From: Picrophilus oshimae DSM 9789
Lineage (GTDB): Archaea; Thermoplasmatota; Thermoplasmata; Thermoplasmatales; Thermoplasmataceae
Assembly (NCBI RefSeq): GCF_900176435.1
Contig: NZ_FWYE01000004.1
Span: forward strand, 62,001 to 126,000
DNA: 64,000 nucleotides
Reading direction: 5' to 3'
In this document: positions 40,997 through 44,055 of the stretch, piece by piece
How positions within the stretch are numbered: position 1 is the stretch's first letter
Layout: each line of letters opens with the position of its first letter
Notes under the pieces: generated by a model
What the model saw: the letters and a program-made list of their open reading frames with translations, nothing else
Told to the model about the DNA's origin: nothing
The model's database searches: none
Position numbers and translations under genes: made by a program

Positions 40997-42622
40997 TTGT
41001 GGAGGCGTGGCATTAGGATTTTCATCGCAATTTTTTTGATGCTGATAATGCTTTTGAGCCTCCTTGTTATTGCAATGCCGGATAATGTTTCTATTAACCA
41101 TAAGAACCATTTTCTAAACAGCTCCGAGATTCAAGATAATTATTATCTAATATCGCTGTCAAACCTGCCCGGCGGACATGGTTTCTACCAGCAGTTTATA
41201 AAAATAAACGATCCGGGCAGCCTTGGTATAAATCAAAATGGAAGCAACATAGAATTCACAGCATTGAATAATACATTATTATATGCATGGATACAATCAT
41301 TAAATAACAATGCAATGACAGTTTTCGTAAAAAATTATAACGATTCCAGCTCAATATTGTTAAAGGTTTTACCATACAGTTCAAACGTTCTCAGCAGCAC
41401 AGGATACACAGGTGAGGCCCCACAGCTTTCAAAGATTTACGGTGAGTACGATAATGGAAGATATGTCTTTCCATTCTACTGCGATTTTAAGGGTAATTCA
41501 TTGAACACAGGCGTTTTTATAAACAACTCTGTTAATTCGCAGGGAAGTTTAATTATCAACAATGGACTTAAATACACACCAACGGGCTCTGAAAACAACT
41601 GTCCATTCATGTATTCAAAAGAAATATTCTCATATGTTACAGTACAGGCATATGGAAATATTTATCCACCGGTTTATACAAACAAACCTTATGACTTCCA
41701 TGGTTATGGCCTGGGTTCAGTATATAACATCAATAAGAATCTTGAGGGCATAGGCCGCTTCTGCGCTCAGACAAACTCACAGGCAGGCATTACAGATCCA
41801 ATCGGTGAGACTGCCGGGCTTAATTATGGGGATTATTTATGGAGCCTTACAATAGGTAAAGATAATTTATATGGGTCACAGTACAATGCCTCAGGGCTGG
41901 TAAACAAAATATCAGAGAAGGATAATGCAATAACACCGGAACCAATAATCTTCTTTGACCAGATAAATTCTGTTAATCCAATAAACTTTACATGGGTAAG
42001 AACACTGACATACCTTCCATCAGGAATGCCAGGATATTTAATATACAACAGTCCGGCGCATTACTTTAGCTTTATGGAGCGTGGTCTGCCCTACGGAACT
42101 CCATGGTACCTGGATGTCTTTGGATCAAAATACCATACAGATGGAAATGTTATATCAATGTGGCTTCCCGGGAATAACTATTCATATAGCATATACACCC
42201 CGGATTATTCAAGGTATATAGCCTATAATCAGTACGGCTCGGTTAATTCAGGAAATTCGAACTCAATAGAGATAAAATTCCTTGAGATCACATACGCGGT
42301 TTACTTTAATGGAACGGGCAGCTGGAATCTCTCAGTTAATGGAAACGGTTACCATGTCTCAGGAAGCATAAAACTTTGCGAGCCCTATGGAAATTATAAT
42401 TATATTGCATATTATAATGGTAACAAAATTTCAGGTAACTACACTGTTAATGGAAACAATGTTTATATCAATCTCCCTGGAAGCCATGGAAATACAATGG
42501 TAAACCAGACCATGGATAATAAGGTTGTAAAATCATCAAATACATATAATATTATAGTCCCGGGAATCTTAATAGTTGTTGCATTGCTTGCATTAACATT
42601 TATTGTTTTAAAACGTAAATAA
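40997..42622 (+). CDS. Large exported surface protein anchored by a C-terminal helix (DUF2341-like)
   Basis: 541 aa. Signal/anchor helix at residues ~5-28, ectodomain rich in Asn, Gly, Tyr and N-x-S/T sequons, and C-terminal helix (IIVPGILIVVALLALTFIVL) followed by KRK. The first ~120 residues resemble DUF2341 (FYQQFIKIND ... NIEFTALNNTLLYAWIQ). At about residue 355 the segment FSFMERGLPYGTPWYLDVFG matches the 'F.E.GLP.GT.W' repeat found in thermopsins and other Thermoplasmatales surface proteins. It is probably an S-layer-associated or binding protein facing the acid medium. There is no protease motif that I can see. Confidence 0.75.
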   Translation: MWRRGIRIFIAIFLMLIMLLSLLVIAMPDNVSINHKNHFLNSSEIQDNYYLISLSNLPGGHGFYQQFIKINDPGSLGINQNGSNIEFTALNNTLLYAWIQSLNNNAMTVFVKNYNDSSSILLKVLPYSSNVLSSTGYTGEAPQLSKIYGEYDNGRYVFPFYCDFKGNSLNTGVFINNSVNSQGSLIINNGLKYTPTGSENNCPFMYSKEIFSYVTVQAYGNIYPPVYTNKPYDFHGYGLGSVYNINKNLEGIGRFCAQTNSQAGITDPIGETAGLNYGDYLWSLTIGKDNLYGSQYNASGLVNKISEKDNAITPEPIIFFDQINSVNPINFTWVRTLTYLPSGMPGYLIYNSPAHYFSFMERGLPYGTPWYLDVFGSKYHTDGNVISMWLPGNNYSYSIYTPDYSRYIAYNQYGSVNSGNSNSIEIKFLEITYAVYFNGTGSWNLSVNGNGYHVSGSIKLCEPYGNYNYIAYYNGNKISGNYTVNGNNVYINLPGSHGNTMVNQTMDNKVVKSSNTYNIIVPGILIVVALLALTFIVLKRK

Positions 42623-42695
42623 ATCTTTTAAAAATATTTTTTTAATATATTTTAGAAGGGTAAAAAGTTTTTATATTACAATTAAATAAATGATT

Positions 42696-42793
42696 GTAGC
42701 AAAAAGCTACCGGGGAGCCATTAATGGCTGAGAGGATCCAAGGGATCGACCCGTGAACCTGATCCGGGTAATACCGGCGGAGGGAGATAGCCA
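42696..42793 (+). promoter_or_regulatory. TPP riboswitch (THI element) with an adjoining 5' hairpin
   Basis: The aptamer core (42706-42791) shows GGGGAGCC, GGCTGAGAGGA, GACCCGTGAACCTGATCCGG, GTAATACCGGCG and AGGGAGA. P1 is GCTA/TAGC. Immediately 5', GTAGC-AAAAA-GCTAC (42696-42710) can form a hairpin that uses the 5' strand of P1, giving an alternative fold. The carrier start codon is 34 nt downstream, preceded by AAAAGGGGA, a possible ribosome binding site. THI elements before MFS carriers are known in Thermoplasma. Confidence 0.95.
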
Positions 42794-42825
42794 ATGGGAT
42801 TCTTGATATATAAAAGGGGATATAA

Positions 42826-44055
42826 ATGCTGAGCAGGAATCAGCGCTTCATGCTGCTTTCCAGCTCGGCAAGCTTTACAATATGGGGGATCATAGCAACA
42901 ATAGGGCCCCTTGCAGCCTCGGGTGCAATAATACATGCACTGCCATTGAAATTAAAGGTTATAATACTTTTAATAGGCCCGATCTTTGCACCTCTTGGAA
43001 ACTTTACAATGGGTTTATTAACAGACATCCTTGGCAGAAAAAGGGTCTTTATAATGACCATGAGTCTTTACGGTATTGGCGTGATAATCATTGCATTTAG
43101 CTATGTATTCTACACACTTTTAATAGGCCTTGTCCTTGCAGAGTTTGGTGTTGGCGGTGAGGAGATGCCATCGTTATCATTAATAGCCGAGGATTCGCCA
43201 TTAAGATCACGTGCAAAATGGTTAACAATTGTATCAGATTTTAACAATATAGGCAGCGCAATAATCACAGGACTTTTTTTAATTGTCTACACATCCATAA
43301 TGGACAGATACGCACTTTTGGTATCCGCATTTATATTAATTGTTATAATGGTGATTGCAAGGGTGAACCTGCCAGAATCGTTTAGATGGCTTAACTCAAG
43401 GGGAAGATTTGACGCTGCAAAAGTGGAGGAGAAAAAATTATACATCGATTCAAACGGAACAAGCACTGGCAAGATCTCTGGAGGGCAGTACCTTGGCAGA
43501 TTTTTATTTCTGGCTGCAATAGGCATATCACAGTATATAACCTTTGGACTGATGGCATATGTAATAGGACCATACGAATTTCCATCAACATACATGGATG
43601 AAATGATAATCTTCGTTGCACTTTTGGGCGCATCCGCTGCTGGTTTTATCGCTGCACCATTGATTTCCAGGGGCAGAAAGGTTTACACTGCATATTCATA
43701 CATTGGCGGCTTTATAAGCACGTTAATAATACTCTTCCTTGTCCCATATTTAAGGAACATGTTCATATTTTTGCCACTGCTTTTTATAAACATGATGATG
43801 AGTGAGTTTGGCTGGGCATCAAGGACAACGCTTGAACCTGAGCTGTTTCCGACAAGGTACCGTGGAACATTTATGGGTATTGTCAGGCTTGCCCCAATGA
43901 TAGGCTATGCAATTTCCGTTGATTTAACAAGCACGTTTACACTTTATCAGTTCATACTATACAATGTAATTCTATGGCTTCTTGGAGCCGTTGCCTCTGT
44001 TCTCTGGCTCATAAAGGGCAATGAGACAAGGGATATAAATATAGATTATGCGTGA
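42826..44055 (+). CDS. MFS transporter under TPP riboswitch control, putative thiamine carrier
   Basis: A 409-aa, 12-helix carrier. Signature loop MGLLTDILGRKRVF, GVGGEEMPSLSLIAEDSPLRSRAKW, NLPESFRWL at the central loop, and TLEPELFPTRYRGTFMGIVRLA in the second half. Riboswitch control by thiamine pyrophosphate strongly implies import of thiamine or a precursor; comparative genomics has proposed such MFS proteins (ThiT1/ThiT2) in Thermoplasma. It stands alone, with an unrelated small gene 30 nt downstream that may share the transcript. Confidence 0.88.
   Translation: MLSRNQRFMLLSSSASFTIWGIIATIGPLAASGAIIHALPLKLKVIILLIGPIFAPLGNFTMGLLTDILGRKRVFIMTMSLYGIGVIIIAFSYVFYTLLIGLVLAEFGVGGEEMPSLSLIAEDSPLRSRAKWLTIVSDFNNIGSAIITGLFLIVYTSIMDRYALLVSAFILIVIMVIARVNLPESFRWLNSRGRFDAAKVEEKKLYIDSNGTSTGKISGGQYLGRFLFLAAIGISQYITFGLMAYVIGPYEFPSTYMDEMIIFVALLGASAAGFIAAPLISRGRKVYTAYSYIGGFISTLIILFLVPYLRNMFIFLPLLFINMMMSEFGWASRTTLEPELFPTRYRGTFMGIVRLAPMIGYAISVDLTSTFTLYQFILYNVILWLLGAVASVLWLIKGNETRDINIDYA

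Follow-up and report, generated by a model that had tools for sequence, protein, structure and literature searches.

A TPP riboswitch of Picrophilus oshimae whose aptamer may double as the ribosome-binding site of a short leader ORF overlapping a transporter gene

The window analyzed here is a 64,000-nucleotide stretch of the Picrophilus oshimae DSM 9789 genome (contig NZ_FWYE01000004.1, positions 62,001 to 126,000 of the forward strand), and all window coordinates are counted from its first letter. A cmscan search returned one Rfam match at gathering score within the window, the TPP riboswitch RF00059 at 42701-42803 on the forward strand (75 bits, the gathering score being 54.3; E 5.9e-13; model positions 1-105 of 105). 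Judged by its sequence, the element is, as an aptamer, an ordinary TPP riboswitch that would be expected to bind TPP, and the match bears out the preliminary description of this DNA, in which it had been named a THI element. The features of the locus are as follows.

42662..42677, + strand: promoter-like region with A-rich AAAAAG at 42662-42667 and a TATA-like box, TTTATATT, at 42670-42677 (sequence, crude consensus scan)
42696..42710, + strand: hairpin GTAGC-AAAAA-GCTAC (sequence, folding energies)
42701..42803, + strand: TPP riboswitch aptamer, RF00059 (cmscan)
42706..42709, + strand: 5' strand of P1, GCTA (Rfam structure line)
42779..42783, + strand: GGAGG, the 3' end of the aptamer and candidate Shine-Dalgarno (SD) sequence of the leader ORF (Rfam structure line, 16S complementarity)
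42788..42791, + strand: 3' strand of P1, TAGC, between the leader-ORF SD and the leader ATG (Rfam structure line, sequence)
42794..42832, + strand: leader ORF of 12 codons, MGFLIYKRGYKC*, with its ATG 10 nt past GGAGG (layout recurs in other leaders)
42826..42832, + strand: ATGCTGA, in which the leader-ORF stop overlaps the transporter start codon (sequence)
42826..44055, + strand: MFS transporter of 409 aa, the putative regulated gene (ORF; Pfam MFS_1, E 4.6e-22)
42827..42870, + strand: predicted hairpin containing the transporter start codon, with an 8-bp outer stem 42827-42834/42863-42870 (free fold)

According to the Rfam structure line, AGG of GGAGG pairs with CCT at 42758-42760 to form P4. 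For the transporter substrate, Pfam gives MFS_1, and all NCBIfam models fall below their cut-offs. Immediately upstream of the element lies a 541-aa ORF (window 40997-42622) with no Pfam match; it resembles a surface protein and has a hydrophobic stretch near its C terminus. The same genome (1.53 Mb in 6 contigs) carries a second TPP element, L002 (1501-1603), followed by another MFS gene (1592-2773).

Matches to the RF00059 model were sought in 117 genomes of the order Thermoplasmatales; 84 of these contain one above the cut-off, and 86 contain one at E<=0.001. The comparative set consists of all matches listed, 123 TPP elements, every one of which was oriented and parsed; genome groups are coded g1-g32. 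The genome's own 16S rRNA ends in ...TGGATCACCTCCT, and its 3' end GGATCACCTCC is complementary to GGAGG, so that GGAGG is a perfect SD for the same genome. The 3' end of the aptamer is exactly GGAGG in 103/123 leaders, while the Rfam consensus at this place is GUAGG. The start codon of the main frame lies 5-9 nt past the site in 55/123 leaders, 54 of them with exact GGAGG, which indicates that the site serves as an SD. This direct layout has been described for TPP, preQ1 and SAM-I switches (Barrick and Breaker 2007, PMC2258182), and the L002 gene follows it with a GTG start 7 nt past the aptamer GGAGG. The window has a different arrangement, and both layouts therefore occur in one genome.

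In the window, the transporter start codon lies 42 nt past GGAGG. The start codon next to GGAGG is instead the leader ATG at 42794, with a comparatively long spacing of 10 nt, and the leader ORF ends with TGA at 42832. Window-like layouts with different peptides are found in the sister species and in three g2 leaders. The layout was assessed in all 68 non-direct leaders by requiring ATG, GTG or TTG 4-10 nt past the site and an ORF end at -3..+20 of the main start, which was set at the earliest ATG that the long frame has within 125 nt, or otherwise at its first start. This layout is present in 39/68 non-direct leaders, where dinucleotide shuffles of the spacer give an expectation of 3.8; when the leader start codon was kept and the remainder shuffled, 9.8 were expected among the 53 leaders possessing one. 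Near-identical rows were taken out before the non-redundant leader-ORF analysis, as they were before the hairpin, TATA-box and synonymous-shuffle analyses described below. With near-copies removed, 32/53 leaders pass, whereas 400 shuffles gave 3.1 on average and never more than 8. Narrower definitions give 29/53 non-redundant leaders against 0.92 expected with ATG only at 5-10 nt, and 17/53 against 0.46 for a tight overlap (0..8) with ATG. Control starts placed 14-20 nt away in 53 leaders gave no excess, either for ATG (0/53; 1.5 expected) or for any start (4/53; 3.9 expected). The stop/start offset equals 1, 4 or 7 nt in 22 of the 39 layout matches. Three of the 39 (L044, L059 and L118) have an aptamer ending in GAAGG or GTAGG and may be matches by chance; all three were left out of the start-openness and synonymous-shuffle tests, and in the tree L044 and L059 carry another label. 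Compared across the order at the level of sequence, an aptamer ending in GGAGG and followed by ATG, a short ORF and a stop overlapping the main start is thus a widespread arrangement.

The layout test was failed by 29/68 non-direct leaders, and these fall into several kinds. Seven belong to g5, five of which have a leader ATG 3 nt past GGAGG and a stop just beyond a GTG main start; in the other two, L077 and L101, the coupled frame has none of the usual leader starts. L009, L020, L025 and L065 would pass if a later start of the main frame were used (offsets 17, 8, 14 and 14, respectively), and three further misses are g14 leaders. The remaining 15 are found in g6, g7, g8, g10, g12 and g19, together with one g4 leader; 14 of them have GAAGG, several have a separate downstream SD, and as a group they look like a conventional platform. 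Six g5 leaders (L101, L115, L120, L121, L124 and L125) carry ACG at both ~9 and ~44 nt past GGAGG, where relatives have ATG at both positions. They appear to use other starts, namely a leader ATG 3 nt past GGAGG (ATT in L101) and a main GTG.

A sequestering pairing downstream of the aptamer is the usual riboswitch design, which speaks for a conventional platform in the window as well, in which an alternative pairing downstream of P1 would sequester the transporter's own ribosome-binding site. Leaders of g6, g7 and g8, and similar GAAGG leaders, do look so: in L087, L099, L092, L098, L112, L119, L048, L060 and the like, GAAGG replaces GGAGG and there is a separate downstream SD, in which GCAGGA can pair with TCCTGC just past the start codon. 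The genes behind these leaders resemble those of ABC binding proteins, and the leaders themselves look like a different, more conventional platform. The GGAGG class, however, retains the leader-ORF layout, and the free fold of the window pairs the transporter start codon with its own coding sequence and not with aptamer bases. We therefore consider a conventional platform highly improbable for the window.

Based on the sequence comparison, we consider it likely that the window element is a TPP-off switch of translation that acts directly on the leader cistron, with the transporter following by coupling. The conserved 3' strand of the aptamer, GGAGG, would double as the SD of the 12-codon leader ORF. 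With TPP bound, P4 and P1 would lock and ribosome loading on the leader ORF would be blocked. Without TPP, the leader ORF would be translated, and a ribosome ending at the TGA that overlaps the transporter ATG would re-initiate there and open the structure around the transporter start codon. In direct translation attenuation (PMC2258182), as described for the same aptamer family, the purine-rich 3' end of the aptamer is likewise the ribosome-binding site and no separate platform is needed, but the start of the regulated gene lies <=15 nt from the aptamer. GGAGG could act as an SD in the same manner; the start within 15 nt is that of the leader ORF (10 nt), whereas the transporter ATG, 42 nt past GGAGG, lies beyond this distance. 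At the transporter start the window has, as pairs coupled by termination-reinitiation do, an upstream stop overlapping the downstream start (ATGCTGA, 42826-42832).

Termination-reinitiation is known at overlapping gene pairs of archaea and bacteria, and has been shown in an archaeon (PMC6728339). Those pairs also have overlapping stop and start codons, and an SD is frequently present where the upstream ORF ends; unlike the present locus they are ordinary genes, and the main text of that paper does not use the term riboswitch (term count 0). A closer parallel is the B12 riboswitch of Mycobacterium tuberculosis ppe2 with its uORF, uPPE2, for which the dependence of the downstream gene on termination-reinitiation was demonstrated experimentally (PMC11260477). 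As reported there, the riboswitch controls a short uORF with an AUGA-type stop/start overlap, as would be the case here. The ligand and aptamer are different, the system is bacterial, and its downstream ORF is described as having no SD; in addition, the ppe2 SD is sequestered by anti-TIR pairing, whereas the SD in the window is the aptamer's own conserved strand. By analogy with ppe2, TPP would shut off the leader ORF and the transporter would follow by termination-reinitiation. A short ORF ahead of a transporter would also permit the leader peptide itself to be the sensor, through attenuation by stalling, the aptamer then providing a second input. The leader peptides, however, vary in sequence and in length (9-42 codons), and it is the start spacing and the stop/start overlap that recur, so that a peptide sensor is the most improbable of the alternatives weighed here.

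Predicted openness of start codons at 60 C was compared between classes. Main starts of the leader-ORF class (36) have a value of 0.42, against 0.81 for the direct class (54; p 6e-10), 0.54 for random coding positions (p 0.007) and 0.73 for the leader starts (p 2e-6); 6/36 are nevertheless at least 0.7 open. Measured against shuffles of synonymous codons, the difference is minor (0.462 v 0.528; p 0.039, one-sided), with 2/34 leaders at p<=0.05, and the direct class has the opposite trend. The structure at the window start codon does not exceed that of synonymous shuffles (p 0.475), and 9/200 shuffles fold as well as the 8-bp stem 42827-42834/42863-42870. In the 10 distinct rows of g2 and g5 orthologues, the proper register of a long start-codon hairpin gives 76% pairing and slid registers give 23-47%; covariation gives it no distinction, with 2 pairs changed on both sides against 0-3 in slid registers. 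The start-codon hairpin was thus rejected as proof of coupling: it is supportive on average, marginal against synonymous shuffles and non-significant in the window.

The main starts frequently have an SD of their own. A match of at least 4 nt precedes 33/39 of them, compared with ~27% of random coding positions, which fits re-initiation, yet also permits independent initiation. The leader ORF could accordingly be incidental, with the transporter initiated independently and TPP control weak or absent. These SD-like sequences agree with such a reading, as does the window's main SD, predicted to be largely open in a short fold. Set against this, the match at the window main start is 3 nt only, and the layout is ~10x commoner than in shuffles and tied to spacing from the aptamer GGAGG. 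On balance we regard an incidental leader ORF as unlikely.

In the preliminary description, control had been placed on the other side of the aptamer: the 5' hairpin would block P1 without TPP, TPP would favour P1, and the switching element would lie 5' of the aptamer. The sequence is as described, with GTAGC at 42696-42700, AAAAA at 42701-42705 and GCTAC at 42706-42710. GCTA (42706-42709) can pair with TAGC (42788-42791), pairs that Rfam puts in P1, and it is thus common to the hairpin and P1. The isolated hairpin 42696-42710 has a folding energy of -4.8 kcal/mol at 37 C and a weak -1.4 kcal/mol at 60 C. When 42694-42840 was folded as a ligand-free ensemble, the outer pair of the hairpin reached a probability of 0.93 at 37 C and 0.35 at 60 C, and the outer pair of P1 one of 0.001 and 0.02, so that the hairpin is predicted to outcompete P1 without ligand. 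An equally good helix reaching the 5' strand of P1/P2 arose in 1/300 flank shuffles for the window and 2/300 for the sister species L007, which retains the hairpin; locally, then, the hairpin is beyond chance. The 3' strand of P1 lies between the leader SD and the ATG, so a 5' switch could even act atop the leader-ORF relay.

Beyond the sister species the evidence turns against it. Of the leaders checked, L007 alone shares the hairpin, with identical GTAGC, and there is thus no covariation. The orthologous leaders L085, L028 and L084 are without it, and no significant helix was found in them at the hairpin position; L028 and L084 offer CCCC or CCCT as partners of P2, which shuffles equal (p 1.0 and 0.46). 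Family-wide, a 5' hairpin reaches p<=0.05 in 7/117 non-identical leaders against an expectation of 5.9, and the best 25 of the 117 leaders scored include no g5 orthologue. A 5' hairpin as a general switching element of TPP leaders is therefore rejected for the family, and we regard the hairpin as a genus-level feature on this comparison.

The position of the transcription start also bears on the 5' hairpin. The best TATA-like box in the 70 nt before P2, found with a crude consensus scan, is 42670-42677 in the window. Initiation ~23 bp past the box, as reported from an archaeal transcriptome (PMC4247193), would give a start near 42700, while a box only 27-28 nt before P2 in 15/118 leaders suggests a shorter box-start distance and a start near 42694-42698. 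The predicted start, ~42694-42701, straddles the 5' arm of the hairpin (42696-42700). An attempt to fix the start from the TATA box was abandoned: in 64/118 leaders the box with the highest score starts 26-34 nt ahead of P2, with the others widely scattered and the window box at -42, and the 56 window ORFs gave a weak calibration. Of the preliminary description, then, the TPP element and the sharing of the hairpin's 3' arm with the 5' strand of P1 stand, while action through a 5' switching element is not supported; we consider it very unlikely. The 3'-side platform of GGAGG, leader ORF and stop/start overlap is far better supported by the sequence comparisons.

A FastTree phylogeny of 120 downstream proteins (L026, L036 and L040 were omitted as too short) requires 9 transitions between the direct, leader-ORF and other states, stateless rows being uncounted. 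Five g5 leaders with an ATG 3 nt past GGAGG were labelled leader-ORF in this tree though they fail the layout test. The clade with the window's transporter (support 87) has the leader-ORF state in 36/50 rows, with 9 direct and 5 unassigned, and the L002 gene sits in an all-direct clade. In the same tree, L103/L105, L008/L076 and L086/L092 are pairs of identical or near-identical downstream proteins from genomes of different genera. These may be mis-binned contigs or recent transfers. Identical leaders likewise turn up in more than one group, so that group counts are possibly inflated.

Class-wide, 167/400 genomes, the order's members among them, pass the RF00059 cut-off. Outside the order, 26 elements were examined and 21 located, and 11/21 have an ORF ending beside or overlapping the main start, a shuffle-uncontrolled count. 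Examples are four elements of g90 and two of g78, with 13 codons and a 4-nt overlap. The 11 matches come from few groups, and 10 of them have no exact GGAGG. Across Thermoplasmatales, and perhaps in other orders of the class, it is reasonably probable that for many TPP switches the platform is translation of a leader cistron, with the aptamer as its ribosome-binding site and the signal passed on through the stop/start overlap and the opening of a start-codon hairpin.

In 2021, the fluoride switch was described as the only natural archaeal riboswitch determined experimentally (PMC8241225). A literature search, with subscription papers mostly outside its reach, found no description of a leader-ORF relay for archaeal TPP switches. 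For a sizeable part of the TPP leaders in a single archaeal order, the layout reported here offers a concrete, testable answer on the mode of action, and it would account for how an aptamer with an SD of its own can control a transporter start at a distance of 42 nt. If true, it would extend the riboswitch-to-uORF relay of M. tuberculosis to archaea and to another ligand.
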